Shown here: positions 5,000-48,657 of the stretch, piece by piece | Numbering within the stretch: the first letter of the stretch is position 1 | Layout: the number at the start of each line of letters is the position of its first letter | Virus record (IMG/VR): IMGVR_UViG_3300032222_000236 | Coordinates: 1-50,907 of that record | Length of the DNA stretch: 50,907 nt | Strand: one strand, 5' to 3' | Source: a virus | Translations under genes and position numbers: made by a program | The notes under the pieces: model-generated | Databases searched by the model: none | The model's input: only the letters and a program-made list of their open reading frames with translations | What the model was told of the DNA's origin: nothing

Positions 5000-7900
5000 T
5001 TATTTATGTACTGCTATTGATAATCTAGACCCATCACTTGCTTCACTATCCAATATTAATCTAAATCCAGAATATTTTAGATTGGTAATAGAAACAACTT
5101 TTGGGCAAGTTGGGCCCTGCCATCCTACTTCAACGGTATAATAACTAAATTTATTTGTATTAGCTGGATTGACAATACCCTGTGTATCCCATGATTCATT
5201 ACTATATATAGGTTCTACAAAAGTTATATCAAATGTATTAGCACCAGCATAAGTAACAGTTTCTATATTATATGAGAATGGCCACCATATCGTAGAGTAT
5301 ATAGTATGATTAGTGGATGAATCGGGTTCAAAAAATCCATATGCTCTTAACGTTTGAAATGCTCTATTAAATCCTCCGAAAAAATAATTGGTGAAAAAAC
5401 TACCACCCGCACTTCTGTTTGAACGAGGATATGCTGCATTGTTAATATAAATTCTTTGATTATTAGAGAGGTGACCTTTTGAATCCGAATTATATAATAT
5501 AAATGAACCTCCTATTTCTCCAATAGTTTGTCTATTTTGCGCACTATCATTACCTGCTACACTATTGGGAACACCATTGACTAATGCATCACTCGATAAC
5601 CACAAATCTAATAATCCTGGTTTTGTAAAAATATACCTATCAGTATCCTGTCCCAAATTAATACCACTTTGGTTCATATTAGATGATGCTACCGCTGCAT
5701 TATATAAAACGTTAATGTTTGGAAAATAATAATTTATATTTAAAACATTATTATAATCCACATTAAAAACGATGTATTGAAGAAGAAAAGCATATGTTAC
5801 ACCTGCTACTAAGTTAACACTATTCATATAGAAAGCGTTAACAGTACTGGTAGGATACCCTTCTGTTCCATACGCACCACCATGCGCACTCTCTACTAAT
5901 CCTGAAACATATTCTTCGGAGTACATATTTGTGCTACCTGGACCATAGATGTATAATCTTAACGCCACATATGGGCCTGGAAAAGATTCAGGTGCAGTAT
6001 CCGGTAATGCAGTAACAGAAAGTGCCATTGTGGTTGGCAGGTTTAATGTAAATTCATATGTAGCTGTAAGAGGTACCGTAAAATTAGTCGTTGAATTCCA
6101 AGTTGGTGCATAGGGCCATGTTGGATAAGAAGGACCAGGCACTTGCAAATATCCGTTCGCACCCTGACCCTCTAATGAACCGGTTTCAAAGTGAGCAGTT
6201 CCGGCTGCAATGCCGGTAAGCGGAATAGTTCCAGCAGTTGCGTTTAATGGGTCAGTTGCATTAGTGGTATCATAATTAAGTGATACTTTAGTTACACCAT
6301 TAGCATCTCTTAATTTAATTACACCATCACTCTGTAAAAGTGTCTGTCCTCCTGTCAATGTATTTGAACTAATAGTCCATCCTCCAATAGTACCGGCCGT
6401 ATTCGCCGTTAATGTTGTTGCAGTTAAATTACCACTCAATGTTACACTTGATGCATTTATATTACCACTCGTATCCAATGAAAAGTTACCTGCTGCAATT
6501 GAAAGGTTCTCACCATCCCATAAGATATACTTACTTCCAGCAGTATTTTTTACAGATATTTTCGAAGTAGAGGCACTAGTTCCTAAGAATATACCTTTTC
6601 CACTAGCTGCATATCCTTTGGTTGCACCCTGTCCAATTGAAATATAAGGTGAACCATCTCCTCCCCAAATTGTTATATTCGCCGCATTTCCCGCTGCATT
6701 AGTACCAACATTAATTGTGTTTTGTACATAAGATTCTTCTGCAATTAAGAGACCCGTTGATATTGCACTAAATGATGTGAATTCTTCCCAACTTGCATCA
6801 CCCCCGTTTGTCGGAGTAGATGTTGCACCAATCGTTGTTAAATCTGCACCTCTAAACGCATAGAATTTTCCACTATGTTTAACCGCATCTTTTTTAGTAG
6901 CATTATTATTTAATACAAATCCAGGGTCGGCCGCTTTCTTAGTTGCATAATCACCTATAAATAAAAGACCAGGCCCTTGTCTACCTTCTTTCGATACTGA
7001 TACCTTATGAGTTCTTACTTCACTACCCGCTACACCTTCTGAGTTAACGTAACTAATTGTAACAGAAACTGTCACTCCTGCATCCGTTGTAGGTGTACTA
7101 GGTGTTATAGTTCCGTTTGCATTATTAGTTCCACCGGTAATAGCAGAAACATAATAAGTACTTGCTCCCAAACCGGTTGAATATGAATATGATGTAGTTT
7201 CTTTTACGGTTATACTAAAGTTTGAAGGTGCTGCAAAAGTAGATGATGATGCAACGTTTTGTGAATCCGCTGAAAAACTTACTAATGTAGTAGGCGGTGC
7301 GTTTTTAATTTTTGATAATGAAACGGTATCAGTTACACTTCTACTCGTTCCCTCACTATCAGTTACAGTCGCACTTACAGAAACTACAGTACCATCAGTT
7401 CCATTTGCTAATGTTCTACCACTTAATGTAATAGTTCCTGTTCCAGGAGTTGTTACAATTGTTGCTATATCAGCTGATGTTGCACTTAATGCAGTAATTG
7501 TTTTTGTTGTAGTAGCACCATTATATGTTTCACTAACTGTCACAACGGGATTACTAAATGCTCCGATTTGAACACCCGTTGATTTCGCAGTTACACTTTG
7601 TGATTTATTTGTTATTTCTACTTTTAATACCGGAGCTGCTTTTCTTGATTTAGAAATTGTAGCAGTACCAACTAAAGTTCTAACTACTCCTTCGGAATCT
7701 GTTACAAGTCCGGTAATAGTTAATACTGAAGTATCCGTTCCGTTTGCCAAATTAGCTAATGTAATCGTAGTAGCATTTGTTGCACTAAATCCAGTATATG
7801 AATTAGTTGCAGTAACAGTTGCAGCCGCATTTAAATTTCTATCTGTAGTTGTACCCTGATATGTATCTTTTACACTTAATGTAATATTACCAAATGCAGT

Positions 7901-10840: not shown

Positions 10841-11026
10841 ATGATAAAGAAATCAGAAAGATATGCTATGTTACAACTCCCAAAAGAGATTCATACTGCA
10901 TTAAAAGACTATTGCGATGAGAGAGGTTATAAAATGAGTAGGTTCGTATCTAACCTAATTAAGGATAAAATACGAACCACTAATAAATCTAGGAATGTTC
11001 TTCCTGTGGATAAAGTTAGAATTTAA
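10841..11026 (+). CDS. Ribbon-helix-helix DNA-binding protein
   Basis: 61 residues with the pattern of a CopG/Arc-type ribbon-helix-helix domain: a short beta strand (RYAMLQLP), helix A (KEIHTALKDYCDERG) and helix B (KMSRFVSNLIKDKI), then a basic tail. Such proteins bind DNA as dimers and usually act as repressors. It is one of only two convincing plus-strand genes. It lies divergent from the tail fibre and overlaps the end of the Mre11-Rad50 gene by 11 bases. Its target sites are unknown; the palindrome at 10810-10821 upstream of its own start is a candidate. Confidence 0.8.
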   Translation: MIKKSERYAMLQLPKEIHTALKDYCDERGYKMSRFVSNLIKDKIRTTNKSRNVLPVDKVRI

Positions 11027-14000
11027 CCGAACTGAATCCGTTATCTTTTTTAATCTCCAATAAACTATCTACCACATCTCTCATTGAATCAATGTGTGAG
11101 ATTACTATTACAAACTCAAATTGAGTTTTAAGATATGCAAATGCCATAAATAGGGATTGTAAGTTCTCACTATCTAATGTACCAAATCCTTCATCTATTA
11201 CTAAGAAGTTTGGACGAGGTAGGTTACATATATTGATTAAAGCAACTCTGATTGCCAACCCACTAACAAACTTCTCCATACCACTGCACATCTCCAACGG
11301 CCACTTTCTATTATCTCCGTAATTGATATAAGCATTAACATTCTTACCATCCATCTGTAGGTTCATACTGAAATCTACAATCTGACCTAATATGTTATTA
11401 ATCTCTCCTTCAATTGCAGGAAGTGTTCTACTGATTAATTCATAGGATATACCATCTCTTTTTACCGCATCCAAATAGTAATCGTATAATTTATTAGTTT
11501 CTTCTAACTTCTTAATTTGAGCAATCCTACCTTCGATTCCTTCTTTTTCTTGCTTTGCTTTAGAAACTATACTATTGATAGATAATTTTTCATCATCAAC
11601 TTCTTTGATTTGTTTTTTAATACCATTGATAACCTCTTTGGTATCAGTAATATCTTTACGAAGTTGTTTATTCAATTCTATTTGCTCTTTGTTTCTATGA
11701 TACTCTTCAATCTTAGAAGTTGAATCTTTTATACCATCCTCAGAATCTCTTATATCCAATTTAGTTTTAGAAATATACTCTTTGATTCTACTAACTAAAG
11801 TTTTGGAATCATTTACCTCTTTATGTTTAGATTGATATGATTTATATGCTTCTTCGACATCATCCCAACTATCCAAAGTTTGTTGGATACCGGTAGCATC
11901 AACTAATGCCTGTTTAACTATTGCTTCCAATTCAGGTAATGCATTTTTCGCAACCATCGCATCTTTAACAAATGTATTATCACAACAATATTTACAATTT
12001 GGGTCATATTCATGTTTATCCAAATGTTTTATCTTTTCTTCAGCTAAACTTAAATATAATTTTGCATTTGAATATACTTTCTCTGCTTCAATTAGTTTTT
12101 TCTGTTCTTCTTGATAATTTGAATATACAACTTCTATATCAATACCATTATATTTAGATAGATGGGATTGTGATTCGATTAATTCCGATACTATACCTTC
12201 TGCCTGTGTTAATTGTTCTTCCATCTTCACAAGTTTACCATTATTAGTTTCTAATGAACTTGTAAAAGATTCTAATCGTTTTGTTTCAACATCTAAATCA
12301 ATTGAAAGAGTAGTTTGTTGAATTTGAGATTCTAAATTAGATAACTTCCTTTCTACTTCGGTTTTATCTTGCTCAAACTCATCCTTCTTTTCAACTAACT
12401 CATTAAATACCTTTCCGTTAGTTTTAACAATCTCATCTAATTCCGCTAATCTCAAAGAAAAATCATCCTTCTTAAAATTCTTTAATAAGATTGCAGCTTC
12501 TTTATTATCTTCGTTTACAACATCAAATAATTTATCGAATACATTTACACCGATATATTGTGCAAGAATATCTTTTCTTTCCGATTGTGATTTATCAATG
12601 AATAAAGCATTATTACCTTGCAATGAAAGTGAAGTCATTACAAAATCTTCATAAGTACCTAAATACTTTTTGATTACATCATTTGTGTTTCTTCTCTCAT
12701 CGCCATTAAGTGATTCATTGATTCCATCTACTACTCTCCAAAAATTAACATTTACTTTAACCTTTTCAGTTTTAGTAGTATGTGCCTCCCTTTCTATAAA
12801 ATAATCTATACCATCAATCTCAAAATTAAATTTACAACTGAATGTATCTTTTTGATTATTCATAATATGAGTAGCCTTAAATGCTCTACTACACTTATCA
12901 AATATGCAAAATGAAAGTGAATCGAATAGGGATGATTTACCCTGTGTGTTCGGTGCAAATAAACCAATGATTCCCTTTGCTCTATCAAACTCTATTTTGT
13001 TTCCTTCACCATATGAGAACATATTACTGAATTCAAACTTCTTAGGAATCCATAGAATATTATCCGTATCCTCATGTGTAATCTTCGTATTAACGTTATT
13101 ATTAATCTCAATTACCTTATTAAGGGTTTCATCATCTAAAAGAAATTGCCTCTCTAAATACTCCTTAATTAACCCATTCTGAACGTTTACATCTTTAACA
13201 TTACCCGCTAAGTTTCTAGCATTACGATTCTTTGTTTTCATAGAATTCAAAGTATCTTGTCGAGTAACGGTAATCTCAGAAATGTTAAACATCTTTTGTA
13301 ATTCAGTTGATACTAATTTAATATCAGCTGCTTCCGTTTCCTGAAATCTAACTCTTAAGCGTGGTTGTTTAGGAAGTTTAGTTCCAATCTCATCACGAAC
13401 CCATTGTGGTATAACACCATTTGTTACATCAATAGTTAAGTAACCATAATCGTTGTGAATATTAAACTCTTCAAAAGTTTCATTCTTCACATCCCATAAT
13501 AGGTAACCATGATTCTCTAAGTATTCTCCGTGATTTTGTTGAACAACCGAACCCGCATAAACTACAATCGGTTTACCATTTGCCTTATCTCTTTGTTGAA
13601 CGATTTGTCTTTTATGAATATCTCCCATCAATACCATATCAAACCCATCAAACATATCAGGTGTGAAATTGTTAGATGATACTATGTAACCAATATCGGT
13701 TCTCGCAGCATCTACCGGTCCATGAAAGAAACATATTTTAGTTTTACCTTCTACATCTTTACCCAAAGGCCAGTTTGCTTTCTTATCTAAAATTGAATAG
13801 ACTGTAAAAGTTAATTCATCATTGATATGAATTGTGCCTGTATCTCTTAAGTAATATAAATTTGGATTGTTTAGGTTATCACAGATAGGAGTTAATACAT
13901 CCAATCTATCCATATTGTTTAAGTTACAATCGTGGTTTCCTGTGATTACAAATGTAGGGAAACGATTTGCACATTCATTGAAGAACCAAGTGATTTCTCT

Positions 14001-14195
14001 AACTAATTCCGGACTCATCTCCGTTTTAGCGTGAGCAATATCACCCGCTAAATAAATAATAGCGTTTTCTTTCTTTTGTGAATCTACATCCACTAAGAAT
14101 TTATTTAGAATCTCTCTATACTCCTTATGACGTTTTAAGTTACGGATGTGTAAATCCGCTAAGTGATAGATGTAATCTACTTTTATGTTAAGCAT
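11016..14195 (-). CDS. Mre11-Rad50 (SbcD-SbcC, T4 gp47-gp46) fusion, recombination nuclease-ATPase
   Basis: One 1059-residue chain joins both subunits of the exonuclease complex. The Mre11 phosphoesterase comes first: DLH (14-16), GDIAH (51-55), GNHD (86-89), HGP (158-160) and GDIHK (191-195) supply the metal ligands. The Rad50 ATPase follows: Walker A GLFAPNTQGKSS (411-422), a coiled coil interrupted near residue 735 by the zinc hook CKYC, a signature-like CSGMEKF near 970, and Walker B with catalytic Glu in FLVIDEGFGTLD near 1001. In T4 and most bacteria these are two proteins encoded by adjacent genes. The complex processes DNA ends for recombination-dependent replication. A strong host-type promoter sits 22 bases upstream. 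Confidence 0.93.
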   Translation of the reverse strand: MLNIKVDYIYHLADLHIRNLKRHKEYREILNKFLVDVDSQKKENAIIYLAGDIAHAKTEMSPELVREITWFFNECANRFPTFVITGNHDCNLNNMDRLDVLTPICDNLNNPNLYYLRDTGTIHINDELTFTVYSILDKKANWPLGKDVEGKTKICFFHGPVDAARTDIGYIVSSNNFTPDMFDGFDMVLMGDIHKRQIVQQRDKANGKPIVVYAGSVVQQNHGEYLENHGYLLWDVKNETFEEFNIHNDYGYLTIDVTNGVIPQWVRDEIGTKLPKQPRLRVRFQETEAADIKLVSTELQKMFNISEITVTRQDTLNSMKTKNRNARNLAGNVKDVNVQNGLIKEYLERQFLLDDETLNKVIEINNNVNTKITHEDTDNILWIPKKFEFSNMFSYGEGNKIEFDRAKGIIGLFAPNTQGKSSLFDSLSFCIFDKCSRAFKATHIMNNQKDTFSCKFNFEIDGIDYFIEREAHTTKTEKVKVNVNFWRVVDGINESLNGDERRNTNDVIKKYLGTYEDFVMTSLSLQGNNALFIDKSQSERKDILAQYIGVNVFDKLFDVVNEDNKEAAILLKNFKKDDFSLRLAELDEIVKTNGKVFNELVEKKDEFEQDKTEVERKLSNLESQIQQTTLSIDLDVETKRLESFTSSLETNNGKLVKMEEQLTQAEGIVSELIESQSHLSKYNGIDIEVVYSNYQEEQKKLIEAEKVYSNAKLYLSLAEEKIKHLDKHEYDPNCKYCCDNTFVKDAMVAKNALPELEAIVKQALVDATGIQQTLDSWDDVEEAYKSYQSKHKEVNDSKTLVSRIKEYISKTKLDIRDSEDGIKDSTSKIEEYHRNKEQIELNKQLRKDITDTKEVINGIKKQIKEVDDEKLSINSIVSKAKQEKEGIEGRIAQIKKLEETNKLYDYYLDAVKRDGISYELISRTLPAIEGEINNILGQIVDFSMNLQMDGKNVNAYINYGDNRKWPLEMCSGMEKFVSGLAIRVALINICNLPRPNFLVIDEGFGTLDSENLQSLFMAFAYLKTQFEFVIVISHIDSMRDVVDSLLEIKKDNGFSSVKF

Positions 14196-37383: not shown

Positions 37384-38058
37384 CTACCATAAATCAGCCC
37401 TATTAAACTCATTTAGATACCCTCTAGCGGTTTGTTTTTTGAATTGCCAATAAACTCTACTATCTATCAAATCCGTTCTATCGTAGTGAGGCAAAACACC
37501 CATAAACATATCTTCTATACCATCAATAAACATATGTTTAATTTTATAATGTTTAAAAAATTCCTGTAAAAATATTATATAGTTTTGATTAACTATACTA
37601 TAATAATTTTCGTTATATAAATTAGTTAAATAGAATTTTTTATAATCTTCCATAAAGAAATCATAATATCTATTCTCTGTTTGGGTAGATGTGAAGAATC
37701 TATCAGGTGTCTCCATTAGATGTTTTGTACTCCAACTCAACCATTCACCTTTAGGCCCTTTTGGAAAAAATGGTAGATAATCTCTAAGTGAAGAAGACCA
37801 CATAACAATAACAAAATCGTTTTTTGTAGTCTCTCCACTTTTTATATCATCTACTATTTGGTTGAATATAACATTATTGGGGTTACCACTTATCCCATTA
37901 TTTTGATAAGGTAACCCCAATTTATCACTTAGGTACTTAACCCAACTATTTTCTTTTTGATAGATTATCTTTTCGTGTTTAGAGAGGGTGTCTTCGATTT
38001 CTCTATTACAACCCTCTCCAACTGTCCAACTATCTCCGTATGCAACTATTCGTTTCAT
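37384..38058 (-). CDS. SGNH/GDSL-type hydrolase, third of four, cut short by TAG
   Basis: 224 residues to the TAG. Block I: MKRIVAYGDSWTVGEG (Ser10). Block II: NNGISGNPNNVIFNQI. Block III-like: DFVIVMWSSSLRD. The Asp-His block is absent from this product but lies immediately downstream in the same frame (37383-37276), so the protein as written would lack its catalytic His. It could be a recent pseudogene, a readthrough product of 260 residues counting the TAG, or a sequence error. It overlaps the carbamoyltransferase gene by 4 bases (ATGA), so the two are translationally coupled and may act on the same glycan. Confidence 0.75.
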   Translation of the reverse strand: MKRIVAYGDSWTVGEGCNREIEDTLSKHEKIIYQKENSWVKYLSDKLGLPYQNNGISGNPNNVIFNQIVDDIKSGETTKNDFVIVMWSSSLRDYLPFFPKGPKGEWLSWSTKHLMETPDRFFTSTQTENRYYDFFMEDYKKFYLTNLYNENYYSIVNQNYIIFLQEFFKHYKIKHMFIDGIEDMFMGVLPHYDRTDLIDSRVYWQFKKQTARGYLNEFNRADLW

Positions 38059-39740
38059 TTCTTAGTTATAACATAATCCTCTATTACTAACATATCCAAT
38101 TCAACTTCCAAAAATGTATCTATTGCAGTTTTAGGGTCTCTAATCATTGTTTGGTCTTTAATATTGAATGATGTATTAAGAACTATTGGGTATTCGTTTT
38201 GTTTTTCTAATTCAGTAAGTAAATCGTATATTCTAACGCAATCTTCTCTATTTAGGGTTTGTATTCTAGCAGTTCCATCAACATGAGTAATTGCAGGTAG
38301 CATATTTCTATACTCTTTTTTAACACCTACTATTTGATTCATATAAGGAACTGATTTATCCCATTCAAAATAGGTAGAAACATCTTCCAATTTTACAATC
38401 GGTGCGAATGGTCTAAACCCTTCTCTCTTTTTTACTATCCTATTTATTCTACTTTTCATTTCCCCATTTGTAGGGTCAGCCAAAATAGAACGATGCCCAA
38501 GGGCTCTAGCACCAAATTCCAATCTACCTTCGAACCAAGCCACAACTTTACCATTTGATATTGCATTTGCAACAACTGAAATAATTTCATCATCGGATAG
38601 TTTATTGTATATTAATTTTTTATTGTAATTTTGTAATTCTTTTTTAACCACATCACTTAAATATTTTGGGCCCAAATAAGGATTCGTATTATCAATTCTA
38701 TGTGGATGTGTACTATTATAATATGATATTAAACATGCACCAATTGAAGAACCCGCATCAGATGGTGCATTTGGTATCCATACATTTTTAAATCCTGTCT
38801 TCTTTGAAATTTTTCCATTAGCAGTTCCATTGTATGCACATCCTCCTCCTAATACTAAATTATCACATTTTGTTCTACGATGTAAATCTTTTAATAAACG
38901 AAAAAAATACATCTCATAAATGAATTGTATCGTTGCTGCTAAATCTTTATGTTGTTGTGTAATTTCTTCTTCAGGTAATCTAGGTAGAATTCCTAAATGA
39001 TTTGATAATTCTGAAGTGAACATAACCTCATCACTTTTATCATATTGAAACATTTTCATATTCAAAGTATATCCACCTTTCTTAGAAGGAAAAATTATTT
39101 CTCTAAATTTGTGCGAAAATGTTTTTGGGTTACCATATGGTGCTAACCCCATAACTTTATATTCTCCTTCATTAGGTTTGAATCCTAAGAATGCAGTAAA
39201 TGTAGAATATAACATTCCCAAAGAATGTGGGAACTTTGTAGTTTCTAATGTATCCCACTCATTTCCTTTTCCATGCGCTAAAACAGTGGTATCCCATTCT
39301 CCAACCCCATCAATACTTAATATTGCCGATTCTCTATATGGAGAGGTTAAATACGAATATCCAATATGTGAATTGTGATGTGATGTAAATTTAAGTTCAG
39401 CTTTTGAAAACATCCATTTCAATCTTTTCCTTAATTCATTATACTGTTTAACTCCTTTAAACGCAAATTTAAAAGCATCTACTATTTGTAGATTTTTTAA
39501 ACAGGTAGTTACTATTCTATGTGTTTTTATTAATGGGCTTTCATAAAAACAAACTTCTTCAACATCTTCAAATGGGATGTTAGATTCTTGCATAATCCAC
39601 TTAATGGATTTTTCTGGAAATGAACTATCATGCTTTATCCCACTAAATCTTTCTTCTTCTACTGCTAAAACCACTTTACCATCCTTAACTAAACATACGG
39701 ATGAATCGTGATAATAACAACTTATTCCTAATTGTATCAT
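38055..39740 (-). CDS. Carbamoyltransferase, NodU/TobZ family
   Basis: 561 residues, the usual size. It starts with LGISCYYHDSSVCLVKDG and EEERFSGIKHD (the YrdC-like/Kae1-like N-terminal signature of NodU-CmcH enzymes), has HHNSHIGYSY, SIDGVGEWDTT and LGGGCAYNGTANGK in the middle, and ends with the C-terminal motif EGRLEFGARALGHRSILADP. These enzymes transfer a carbamoyl group from carbamoyl phosphate onto a hydroxyl, normally of a sugar or antibiotic; some phage relatives have been proposed to act on modified DNA bases. Flanked by the sigma factor and an SGNH hydrolase with 4-base overlaps. Acceptor unknown. Confidence 0.92.
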   Translation of the reverse strand: MIQLGISCYYHDSSVCLVKDGKVVLAVEEERFSGIKHDSSFPEKSIKWIMQESNIPFEDVEEVCFYESPLIKTHRIVTTCLKNLQIVDAFKFAFKGVKQYNELRKRLKWMFSKAELKFTSHHNSHIGYSYLTSPYRESAILSIDGVGEWDTTVLAHGKGNEWDTLETTKFPHSLGMLYSTFTAFLGFKPNEGEYKVMGLAPYGNPKTFSHKFREIIFPSKKGGYTLNMKMFQYDKSDEVMFTSELSNHLGILPRLPEEEITQQHKDLAATIQFIYEMYFFRLLKDLHRRTKCDNLVLGGGCAYNGTANGKISKKTGFKNVWIPNAPSDAGSSIGACLISYYNSTHPHRIDNTNPYLGPKYLSDVVKKELQNYNKKLIYNKLSDDEIISVVANAISNGKVVAWFEGRLEFGARALGHRSILADPTNGEMKSRINRIVKKREGFRPFAPIVKLEDVSTYFEWDKSVPYMNQIVGVKKEYRNMLPAITHVDGTARIQTLNREDCVRIYDLLTELEKQNEYPIVLNTSFNIKDQTMIRDPKTAIDTFLEVELDMLVIEDYVITKK

Positions 39741-41002: not shown

Positions 41003-41554
41003 TTACATCAAAATATATCCTTTATCAATGTATTTGGATATATGTTTATATTTAATTTGTTCAATGTTACCACTAGGGTCTTTCGCCATAACCAATTGGT
41101 TTCTTTCATATTGAACCTGCTTTCTAATAGGTTGATTTATATTTTTATCCGCAATTGTTATACCATCTAATAGGTCAATCATTTGTTGTGCAAAAATACA
41201 CTCATCCAAACCTTCCCTATCATTTTCCATATCACCTTTGAATACCACTAATCCTAAATTATCAGTTTGAACTTCAATTGAAAAAGCTCTAACTACTATT
41301 CTACTTTTTCCATTTGTATCAAACTCCGACATTTCAGTAGATTGAAATGCATCATTTGAATACTTTGTTATGTATGGATTAATTAAAAGGAGTGGAGTTT
41401 CTGTGTTAAGATAAAATGCCCTGAATGGTAAATTAACACTTCTGGTACAAACTGCTGAAAGTTTTGTGCTGCTAGCGTAACGCTTTAATGTTTTCAATAT
41501 CAACTCCTCATCTGATTTTGTGAAAGGAGTAGATTCAATTTTAGTTAATTTCAT
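41003..41554 (-). CDS. Degenerate peptide deformylase homologue (probable pseudoenzyme)
   Basis: 183 residues with the outline of peptide deformylase: LLLINPYITKYS matches the xINPxI strand, and QQMIDLLDGITI aligns with the deformylase QHEIDHLNGVLF signature. The two metal-binding His and the catalytic Glu of that motif are Gln, Leu and Met here. The GxGLAAxQ loop is replaced by TKLSAVCT, and no EGCLS loop is seen. The fold seems kept but metal binding lost. It may serve as a binding or structural protein. First gene after the promoter at 41575-41605, upstream of the late sigma operon. Confidence 0.65.
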   Translation of the reverse strand: MKLTKIESTPFTKSDEELILKTLKRYASSTKLSAVCTRSVNLPFRAFYLNTETPLLLINPYITKYSNDAFQSTEMSEFDTNGKSRIVVRAFSIEVQTDNLGLVVFKGDMENDREGLDECIFAQQMIDLLDGITIADKNINQPIRKQVQYERNQLVMAKDPSGNIEQIKYKHISKYIDKGYILM

Positions 41555-41610: not shown

Positions 41611-41922
41611 TCAATATGTTTTTGAATTAAAATCAGTAGGATATTTAATTGGTTCTTTATGAGTTAGCCAATAGTTTACTGCATTTTGGTCGTTTATCCA
41701 CTTTTGTGTATCATTCCAATTAAATTCAGGTCTAGCATAATATGGTAACATATTCTTCATTACCAATGCTCTGTTTGGATGTGCAGTTACTTTATTTATT
41801 AAACCATCCCCATCTGTATCGATTCCGTCTATAGAACCATCTCCATCTAAATCAATCCCTCTGGCACTAAAATCTCTAGTAAGTTTTGTTAAATCTACAT
41901 CTTCATCAGATTTTTCTACGAC
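41611..41922 (-). CDS. -1 frameshift extension with DxDGDG calcium-binding motifs
   Basis: In the -1 frame relative to the membrane protein, codons run open from the slippery site to TGA at 41613-41611: 103 residues with no ATG until about residue 55, so it cannot easily be translated alone. It contains GIDLDGDGSIDGIDTDGDGL, two calcium-binding loops of the EF-hand/thrombospondin type 3 kind, and a well-formed C-terminal part (MLPYYARPEFNWND; KWINDQNAVNYWL). Together with the first 297 residues of the membrane protein it would make a 400-residue protein. This explains almost all of 41555-41915, otherwise the only gene-free stretch over 300 bases. Confidence 0.7.
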   Translation of the reverse strand, partial: VVEKSDEDVDLTKLTRDFSARGIDLDGDGSIDGIDTDGDGLINKVTAHPNRALVMKNMLPYYARPEFNWNDTQKWINDQNAVNYWLTHKEPIKYPTDFNSKTY

Positions 41923-42812
41923 TTTTTTTTTAAAAGTTCATCATAGTTTTCCTTTGCTTCCAATAAATCTTCATTTGGTGGAGTAGGATTCTCTATTTCA
42001 TTAAAAAACACCTCAGCATCTTTTTCAGAAGCTAATATCGGTTTTTCTCCATACACTTCATACATAGAAGGTACTGTTTCTTCCTCTCTTTTCATCACTA
42101 ATCCATTAAATGCGATAATTAGAGCGATTGCGAGTGGGTCAAACACTATCACAATCAAAAATATGAAGAATTTCACTACATTTTTCAATTCTATACCAAA
42201 TGCTTCGGCTACAAATCGGAATCCACCTACTTCTTTCTCTAAATCGATGTTAGCAATCTTAATTTTGTTGATTTCTTCGGTATTTTTAGCGTTTTCAGTC
42301 TGTAATTTACCGATTTTATCGTTTAATTTACTGATTTCTCTATCTCTATTATCAACTGAACGAAGTAATCTACTATTTACCTTACCACCATCCAAAATTT
42401 TACCCTGATTGGTGTTAGATTCGGTAATTTGAGTGGATAATTGGGTAATTTGAGTGTTATTTTGGTCTATTTTCGTTTGCCACACCGCAACTTCCCTATC
42501 TACCTGTTGTAATTGTAAGGATTGTTGTTGGAATGCATTAGAAAGATAACCAAATATACCCGCAGAGGTAATTAACATCAGGATACCCACCGAAATGGTT
42601 AAATACCACTTATTAAACCCCTTAATATCATCCCAAGTCTGTTTTAGATAGGTTGCAGCCACTAATTTAGCAAATTCTAATGAACCCGCCATTACCATAA
42701 CAGAGGTAGATGCTCCCGCAAAGAGAACACCTAATCCTGTTACGGAAAAGAACGCAGCGCATCCTGCTATAATAACTGCTGATACCCCTACTAAAAATTT
42801 TAACCAATTCAT
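41916..42812 (-). CDS. Inner-membrane coiled-coil protein (zero-frame product)
   Basis: 298 residues. Two or three hydrophobic helices occupy residues 1-95 (including FLVGVSAVIIAGCAAFFSV and YLTISVGILMLITSAGIFG). A coiled coil with Gln/Asn-rich heptads spans about 98-195, another membrane segment near 212-240 contains FIFLIVIVFDPLAIALIIAF, and a cytosolic acidic tail ends LLKKKS. The FDPLAxxLxxAxN signature is known in phage and DUF4407-like membrane proteins. The zero frame ends in TAG two codons past a slippery A run; a frameshifted longer form is likely. Role unknown; perhaps lysis timing, superinfection exclusion or membrane anchoring. Confidence 0.8.
   Translation of the reverse strand: MNWLKFLVGVSAVIIAGCAAFFSVTGLGVLFAGASTSVMVMAGSLEFAKLVAATYLKQTWDDIKGFNKWYLTISVGILMLITSAGIFGYLSNAFQQQSLQLQQVDREVAVWQTKIDQNNTQITQLSTQITESNTNQGKILDGGKVNSRLLRSVDNRDREISKLNDKIGKLQTENAKNTEEINKIKIANIDLEKEVGGFRFVAEAFGIELKNVVKFFIFLIVIVFDPLAIALIIAFNGLVMKREEETVPSMYEVYGEKPILASEKDAEVFFNEIENPTPPNEDLLEAKENYDELLKKKS
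41922..41928 (-). promoter_or_regulatory. -1 ribosomal frameshift site A-AAA-AAG
   Basis: The heptamer, in the zero frame AAA-AAG (inside a run of nine A), is the same as the E. coli dnaX frameshift site. A weak hairpin with arms AAATCT and AGATTT begins about 8 bases downstream. An AAAGGA purine element lies roughly 17-20 bases upstream. Confidence 0.6.
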
Positions 42813-43060: not shown

Positions 43061-43091
43061 CAAAGATAGGTATAATTTTTCAATTAACCAA
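43061..43091 (-). promoter_or_regulatory. Promoter-like TATCTTTG directly before a terminator
   Basis: TATCTTTG at 43068-43061 and TTG at 43091-43089 with the usual 20-base gap. Any transcript would begin inside or next to the hairpin at 43035-43059. Function unclear. Confidence 0.4.
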
Positions 43092-43485
43092 CTTTAATCG
43101 TAACCTTTTTTGGTTTTGCTTCTTCCTTCTTAGGAATAGTTAAATAAAGAATACCATTTAAGATTTTAGCTGATGTTTTTTCTCCATCAAATTTGTCTCC
43201 TACCGAAATTCTATCATTAATAGTAGAAATAAGTTCTTTCTCAACTTTTGATAATTCTCTTTCTTTTGATTTTACAAAAATTGCATCTTCTTCTAATTCA
43301 ATAGTAATATCATCTTTACTATGACCTAAAACAGATAGAGCTATAACTGCTTCCTCTTCTGTAATATCAATAGATAATCTAGAGTTTTGATACTTTACGG
43401 TTGGTAAAGATAAAACTGCATCATTGAAAAACGAATCTAACACTTTATCAAGTGTTGTGTAATTTTTTTTAGTTGTGTTGTACAT
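43084..43485 (-). CDS. Small heat-shock protein (Hsp20/alpha-crystallin)
   Basis: 133 residues. The beta-sandwich is visible as SRLSIDITEEEAVIALSVLG, DDITIELEEDAIFVKSK and a C-terminal strand GILYLTIPKKEEAKPKKVTI, where the GxLxLxIPK motif and the terminal I-x-V/I are family hallmarks. It holds unfolded proteins in solution without ATP. Phages of the T4-like group often carry one. It is ended by the terminator at 43031-43059; a terminator of the preceding gene lies upstream, so it has its own promoter (a degenerate TTTTTATAGTAT is 20 bases upstream). Confidence 0.88.
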   Translation of the reverse strand: MYNTTKKNYTTLDKVLDSFFNDAVLSLPTVKYQNSRLSIDITEEEAVIALSVLGHSKDDITIELEEDAIFVKSKERELSKVEKELISTINDRISVGDKFDGEKTSAKILNGILYLTIPKKEEAKPKKVTIKVG

Positions 43486-47849: not shown

Positions 47850-48623
47850 TTACATAAGGAACTCTATTTCCCTACTTACAAAATCATAGTTGAATTTGAT
47901 AGGGTCTTGAATTGCTTCATATCTTAGATTACAAGTTGATGCGTTGAATGTGTATATATCTCCCCATTCATCTTTGTAAGGTATAGTTCCCCACCCATAT
48001 CCTTCGTGTATGTGACCGGCAAAGTGTAAATGAGGTTTCACTTCATGTAATCTGTGATATAAATCTGAACACCCTACATTTTCGTTTGTGTTAGATGTTC
48101 TATCATTATATCCATAGATAGGAGAGTGAGTAATTACTATATCGGTATCTAATGGTATTTGATTCCAAATCTGAGCCGCATCATATCCTCTATCCACATT
48201 AAATCCCCAGCCATATCCGAATGATGGTGAATACGGTGAACCCCATATATTCAATCCTTCGATTTTAACACCACTATCCTCTAAATAATAAACTCCATTT
48301 GGAAGATTACCCAACATATCCTTTAACCATTGAGGCTTACGTTCTGCACATTCAGTATCATATTCAGTTCTACCTTCAAAATAAGCCAACTTATCTCTCA
48401 ATAATCTTTCTCTATCGAAAGACATATCATGATTACCAGCTATGAATATTTTATGAGTATAATCTTGCTTACCAAACCATTTAATAAAATCAGCTACCTC
48501 ATACTTTCTACCCAACGATGTAATATCTCCACTATGGATTAGGATATGCCCACCTGGTAACTTACCATTAAGTTGATTGTGTTTGTTATGGGTATCTGAT
48601 ATTGCAGTAATATTATATTTCAT
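47850..48623 (-). CDS. Calcineurin-like metallophosphoesterase
   Basis: 257 residues from ATG 48623. Metal-ligand motifs: ISDTHNKHN (Asp10, His12), HSGDITSLG, IAGNHDMSF, ITHSPIYG and FAGHIHEGY, in the correct order. Phosphate-ester substrate unknown (nucleotide, cyclic or protein). The in-frame TTG at 48629 is rejected as a start: it lies in the promoter box TATATTTG, which ends three bases before the ATG, implying a leaderless mRNA. Followed by a strong terminator, so a one-gene unit. Confidence 0.85.
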   Translation of the reverse strand: MKYNITAISDTHNKHNQLNGKLPGGHILIHSGDITSLGRKYEVADFIKWFGKQDYTHKIFIAGNHDMSFDRERLLRDKLAYFEGRTEYDTECAERKPQWLKDMLGNLPNGVYYLEDSGVKIEGLNIWGSPYSPSFGYGWGFNVDRGYDAAQIWNQIPLDTDIVITHSPIYGYNDRTSNTNENVGCSDLYHRLHEVKPHLHFAGHIHEGYGWGTIPYKDEWGDIYTFNASTCNLRYEAIQDPIKFNYDFVSREIEFLM

Positions 48624-48626
48624 ACT

Positions 48627-48657
48627 CAAATATACGAAAAAAATCTGATAAAAACAA
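48627..48657 (-). promoter_or_regulatory. Bacteroidota-type promoter, likely leaderless
   Basis: TATATTTG at 48634-48627, TTG at 48657-48655, 20 bases apart, and only AGT between box and the ATG at 48623. Same layout as 17350-17380. Confidence 0.65.

Follow-up and report, generated by a model that had tools for sequence, protein, structure and literature searches.

A conserved run of nine A's as a probable programmed slippage site in a phage membrane protein gene

The locus, its out-of-frame tail, and its relatives

The window, the whole stretch of DNA that we analyzed, corresponds to a 50,907-base virus record in IMG/VR. It comes from a freshwater virus of bacteria that appears to encode short and long versions of a membrane protein in one gene. 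The features of this locus are as follows.

41916-42812, minus strand: membrane protein gene in the zero frame, 298 amino acids, the short product, ending KKKS-stop (from the sequence and relatives)
41920-41933, minus strand: slip site TTAAAAAAAAAGTC, invariant in 24/24 distinct split relatives
41923-41931 and 41922-41928, minus strand: the A9 run and the heptamer A_AAA_AAG, respectively, both inside the slip site
41916-41918, minus strand: zero-frame stop TAG, two codons past the slip site
41611-41922, minus strand: -1-frame tail, 103 codons plus stop, reachable only via the slip site (dN/dS 0.21)
41794-41853, minus strand: tandem acidic loops DLDGDGSIDGIDTDGDGLIN, probable metal-binding loops, with Asp and Gly invariant or nearly so in 55 tails
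41668-41745, minus strand: tail core PYYARPEFNWNDTQKWINDQNAVNYW, a signature common to the tail and its in-frame relatives, with invariant P60, Y61, Y62, W69, and W75-W85

The 3' end of the membrane protein gene reads GAT GAA CTT TTA AAA AAA AAG TCG TAG. An earlier note on this DNA had described a zero frame of A-AAA-AAG followed by TCG TAG, and this was confirmed at its minus-strand coordinates. The 298-residue protein has hydrophobic segments at about 1-46, 69-92, and 204-242, with a long coiled coil between them. Pfam and PHROGs profiles found nothing in the membrane part beyond coiled-coil noise, and matches to Rz-spanin PHROGs (E 4e-4 or weaker) were rejected as coiled-coil artefacts. The reported 103-codon -1 frame with two DxDGDG loops was also present, running from GTC at 41922 to a stop at 41613-41611. 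As had been claimed, it has no early start, with the first ATG, GTG, or TTG at codon 52 (counted from 0), and it fills the largest gene-free stretch, a 361-base gap between neighboring genes when open reading frames of at least 90 amino acids are considered. With no start codon close to the junction, the tail would escape standard gene calling. The A9 at the slip site is the only run of nine or more A's or T's in the 50.9-kb window, and flanking DNA of related contigs contained 16 such runs per 508 kb.

The downstream neighbor is a 183-amino-acid peptide-deformylase-like gene (41003-41554, minus strand; Pfam E 1.1e-4, just under the cut-off), and a homologous MKLTKIESTPF-type start follows the tail in several split relatives. 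Upstream is a phage-borne gene for an Hsp20 small heat-shock protein (43084-43485, minus strand). With these two as its neighbors, the membrane protein gene has no tape-measure gene right downstream. We therefore rejected the phage tail-chaperone G/GT frameshift as its identity, since the product is a membrane protein and the gene is not next to a tape-measure gene.

Relatives were gathered from IMG/VR viral contigs by protein searches with the membrane part and by searches with the tail, which gave several hundred stretches. After removal of duplicates, 121 genes had the membrane domain and a detectable C-terminal relative. The tail was in the -1 frame in 24 of them (split) and in the zero frame in 97 (fused). 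A later tail-centered count, which included two more tail-based scans, gave 98 fused and 19 split tails besides that of the window. Split genes were almost all found through protein similarity and not by a DNA motif, the exception being L246, which came from a motif scan. All 24 distinct split genes have the identical 14 bases TTAAAAAAAAAGTC at the frame overlap, and no split gene without this motif was found among the relatives, tail-centered scans included. Their membrane domains are 59-98% identical to that of the window, a difference of up to 41%. The -1 tail of the window shares 47-71% amino acid identity with the in-frame C-terminus of relatives. Therefore, with a homologous C-terminal region in frame in about 97 distinct relatives, the tail is a real domain. 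Homologs were not found in bacterial genomes.

The earlier note had proposed comparing the A-run length in relatives and had held that a fused relative with ten A's would point to an indel. The run was A9 in all 24 split genes, and in one close relative (L014) the run at the window's site is indeed A10, which puts the tail in the zero frame. Its default product is long, and an extra A at the A10 run leads to KKKSQ-stop. However, this does not turn the split gene of the window into an indel artefact, since 24 distinct and divergent genes all have A9 and selection acts on the tail in the -1 frame (see below). At this site among the relatives, we found that one A10 and no A8 or A11. A third group of relatives, with or without acidic loops, has no long A run. 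On the membrane-domain tree, the split state costs seven changes, at least six of them forced by well-supported branches. Either repeated switching or recombination that exchanged linker-tail modules could account for these changes.

The tail has two loops, DLDGDGSID and DTDGDGLIN, that follow the D-x-D-x-D-G-x-x-D consensus, and their aspartates are invariant or nearly so in 55 tails. The loops overlap at D35 to give D-x-D-x-D-G-x-x-D-x-x-D-x-D-x-D-G, a shared-aspartate pattern that we take to resemble thrombospondin type-3 spacing. The W/Y-rich stretch that follows ends WINDQNAVNYW. In one relative (L004, 2680-2922), the second acidic loop has been lost by an in-frame six-codon deletion compared with the near-identical L006.

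The best Pfam matches to the tail were EF-hand models below the cut-off (E 0.21-0.46), and neither a dockerin nor a TSP3 model matched. A structure model of the tail had a pLDDT of 84, and its fold had no match in the PDB at E<=10 and none that was useful among viral models (BFVD). Sequence and fold searches of the tail against the PDB and viral models thus gave nothing, and none of 50,697 phage records matched it. It is a small domain, strongly conserved, that belongs to no recognized family. The earlier note had called it calcium binding. The loop pattern is nearly invariant, but neither a Pfam model at the cut-off nor a solved fold supports this name. Metal binding by the loops is plausible, and the loop pattern is what suggests calcium. 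A full-length model of a fused relative (L017) was of low confidence (pLDDT 66), and only secondary structure was taken from it. Judging from the hydrophobic segments and positive charges, the C-terminus would lie in the cytoplasm.

Selection on the slip site and the tail

Synonymous variation was examined in the 23 split genes with usable alignments. Degenerate codon columns with an invariant amino acid showed such variation in 102 of 119 cases (86%), whereas the slip site showed none. TTA, which is 58% of Leu codons, is fixed at the slip site. GTC accounts for only 2% of Val codons in the membrane part and 3/86 in the tails but is nonetheless fixed there as well. This suggests that the run is kept for its nucleotides.

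The median dN/dS was 0.21 for the tail in the -1 frame (216 pairs) and 0.18 for the membrane part, indicating purifying selection on both. Therefore, the out-of-frame tail must be translated. Most split tails (19/24) have no ATG, GTG, or TTG ahead of the first loop, which makes independent initiation unlikely, and we rejected an own start for the tail on this basis.

We propose that the conserved A9 run in TTAAAAAAAAAGTC serves as a site of programmed slippage. Without a slip, translation would give the 298-residue membrane protein, ending directly after the run. If one base is effectively gained at the run, either because RNA polymerase adds an A or because the ribosome moves back one base on AAA AAG, then reading of the -1 frame would append the 103-residue tail, which contains the conserved W/Y-rich core and both acidic DxDGDG loops and probably faces the cytoplasm. 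The outcome would be a short and a long form from one phage gene, and we consider it very probable that programmed slippage at the conserved A9 produces them. The site, the homology, the frame-specific selection, and the conservation of the run across divergent phages are established. The production of both forms, their importance, and their ratio are inferred. A long A run is absent from many fused relatives, which would yield the long form only, so the short form may not be essential. The earlier claim of two proteins from one gene thus stands as far as a conserved site and two possible products are concerned, but not in naming the ribosome as the agent.

A runs in fused relatives with the opposite default

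Many fused genes encode a KK(K/N) motif in the linker with an in-frame run of A9-A11, for example, ATA AAA AAA AAC GAA ATT (L017, L035, L141, and L106 are such relatives). The A9 site of several split genes (L124, L131, and L012) falls at the equivalent point of the linker in the alignment, YEEDLKKK versus YESELKKN. The base after the in-frame runs varies (C, G, or T). At least nine A's were kept in all 48 genes with the KK(K/N) linker motif, a set made up of fused genes and of split genes that carry this motif in addition. From amino acids and codon usage, the chance expectation per gene is about 0.1-0.6 (12-60%). When each of the 11 sequence clusters was represented by its highest chance, the joint P was about 1e-4, a crude test in which shared ancestry among the 48 genes is only partly removed. 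Across whole linkers, A9 runs were in mild excess (39/90 versus 31 expected from amino acids). A clear excess is confined to the KK(K/N) site, so the evidence from in-frame runs is suggestive.

A -1 slip at an in-frame linker run leads to a stop within 0-2 codons, such as KKKRN-stop, and thus to a tail-less protein. These stops are no closer to the runs than chance; their nearness matches the amino acid expectation. It is therefore a consequence of the amino acids and adds no further evidence. Fused relatives with a linker run have the opposite default and probably the same two products. There would then be two polarities: default short with a slip to long (A9, as in the window) and default long with a slip to short (in-frame A9-A11, and the A10 of L014). 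We tentatively suggest, at a little below even chances, that long linker A runs set the ratio of tailed to tail-less protein throughout a widespread freshwater phage family, with the polarity flipped repeatedly and the two-product output conserved rather than the frame.

Polymerase, ribosome, and other explanations

The earlier note had assigned the slip to the ribosome. A conserved -1 recoding site is there, but the ribosomal level did not hold up as the only reading, since A9 is also a classical polymerase run and no stimulator was found. In favor of RNA polymerase, nine A's is the minimum run length in both the split and in-frame states, and the base that follows the in-frame runs is not constant. 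A conserved run of nine A's in homologs is a published mark of purposeful transcriptional slippage (PMC1088944), and here runs of about nine or more have conserved lengths, A9 in 24/24 split genes and A9-A11 in 48/48 linker sites. Since the constant element is A9 and stimulators are not apparent, we slightly favor RNA polymerase slippage over the ribosome, at roughly even odds, and both may contribute. The invariant G-T-C after the run exceeds what polymerase slippage needs and hints at a ribosomal heptamer context.

Purely ribosomal -1 frameshifting, by a tandem tRNA-Lys slip on A_AAA_AAG with the A9 extension incidental, is a serious possibility that we rate somewhat short of even. Programmed -1 ribosomal frameshifting usually, but not universally, has a stimulator such as a stem-loop, pseudoknot, or Shine-Dalgarno-like sequence. 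The site has the canonical strong X_XXY_YYZ heptamer in the zero frame ahead of the zero-frame stop, ending in AAG and then TC in all 24 split genes. In an unrelated phage contig, L092, the identical TTTAAAAAAAAAGTCGTAG stands at the end of a gene whose downstream neighbor is tape-measure-like, as is classical for a phage tail-chaperone -1 frameshift, and shifts in tailed phages can work without stimulators (PMC5009743). However, E. coli heptamers without stimulators reach at most about ten times the 0.055% background (PMC4066793), so stimulator-free shifting is weak there. We found no unusually stable downstream fold in any relative (z about 0, range -1.3 to 1.7; single-sequence folds of the 70 nt after the site versus base-composition shuffles) and no conserved Shine-Dalgarno-like sequence, with GAGG just upstream in L155 and L246 only. 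Without a conserved structure or Shine-Dalgarno-like stimulator, a ribosomal level is unproven. Furthermore, the invariance extends in full to TTA and the first AAA, bases that for the most part are not within the heptamer, and every in-frame run in the relatives has at least nine A's.

Other explanations concern the origin of the split itself. An ancestral fused gene might have lost a base in its A run, with slippage rescuing enough long protein and the short product functionless. Most relatives do have the tail in frame, and some of these lack an A run and would make the long form only; a single base toggles the state in L014; and a comparable rescue is known in Citrobacter tssM1, although both forms matter there (PMC4256274). 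However, the split state has survived extensive divergence (median pS of the tail 0.58 across split relatives), the split/fused label needs at least six changes on the membrane-domain tree, and a run with the opposite default is kept in fused relatives. We therefore regard such a tolerated indel as unlikely. Switching of the tail on and off by A9-A10 changes in the phage DNA is much less likely still. Homopolymers are hypermutable and the A10 of L014 is in frame, but a locus that switches should vary in length, and this site is A9 in 24/24 distinct split genes, A10 in a single relative, and never A8 or A11. An error of sequencing or assembly, or decay of the gene, has only the homopolymer position in its favor and is close to negligible. 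The same state occurs in independent metagenomes, the tail is under purifying selection in the -1 frame, and a site unchanged in some two dozen relatives is a genuine signal that excludes sequencing error. The identical motif in 24/24, the -1-frame selection, and the lack of any motif-free split gene together rule out assembly error, decay, and a plain indel.

The proposed slippage at the A9 run is of a kind already known from dnaX, tssM, and phage Ig-like extensions. Poly-A transcriptional slippage in tssM1 of Citrobacter rodentium and tssM3 of Yersinia pseudotuberculosis likewise occurs on a long A run toward the 3' end of a gene for an inner-membrane protein (PMC4256274). There too, an extra base restores a C-terminal domain, there are two length variants, and both polarities occur in one family (PMC4256274). 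However, tssM1 has A11 and is a bacterial secretion gene in which slippage was shown in the laboratory (PMC4256274), whereas the window has A9 in a phage gene, invariant with its flanks across many relatives. The dnaX genes of Thermus thermophilus (A9 slippage) and E. coli (A_AAA_AAG ribosomal shift) have the same run or heptamer, and each encodes two products. The in-frame relatives described here would behave like dnaX, in that a slip would give the short form. The dnaX protein is unrelated, and in the window the direction resembles that in IS elements, with the slip leading to the long form. In phages T3, A2, and others, Ig-like extensions also provide a second product with an extra C-terminal domain, and relatives fuse it in frame or by frameshift (PMC5009743). 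They sit on capsid and tail proteins (PMC5009743), whereas here a membrane protein has an acidic-loop tail. The lambda gpG/gpGT-type frameshift is likewise a -1 shift near a phage gene end without obvious strong stimulators, but it serves a tail chaperone and not a membrane protein. A literature search for phage programmed frameshifting with a transmembrane and calcium-binding protein found nothing relevant. Within the literature and databases searched, there was no precedent for this gene family, for the tail, or for the apparent switching of polarity.

Among these phages the run occurs as A9 with the tail out of frame, as A10 with the tail in frame, as an in-frame A9-A11, or not at all, which amounts to a natural series. 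It lets one ask whether phages select a product ratio or the long protein only, and comparing sites within it could separate RNA polymerase slippage from ribosomal slippage.

Other candidate recoding sites were seen in the contigs. One is the TTTAAAAAAAAAGTCGTAG of L092 (minus strand, about 6698-6715 of IMGVR_UViG_3300035698_033498), which resembles a tail-chaperone frameshift of the G/GT type. In L243 and L250 (IMGVR_UViG_3300042309_000614 and 3300043786_000852, similar contigs), a Bacteroidota-phage-type large terminase gene is split between frames, with the first residues MKANPNFLYLKKK in one frame and the remainder in the -1 frame after TTTAAAAAAAAAGTC; this is possibly a second recoded gene. 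Elsewhere in the window are a complete NodU-type carbamoyltransferase gene (38055-39740, minus strand; both Pfam domains, E about 1e-63) and an SbcC-like gene (PHROGs) and separate calcineurin-like phosphoesterase gene (Pfam) at 11016-14195 and 47850-48629 (minus strand), the latter possibly an SbcD-type partner of the former.
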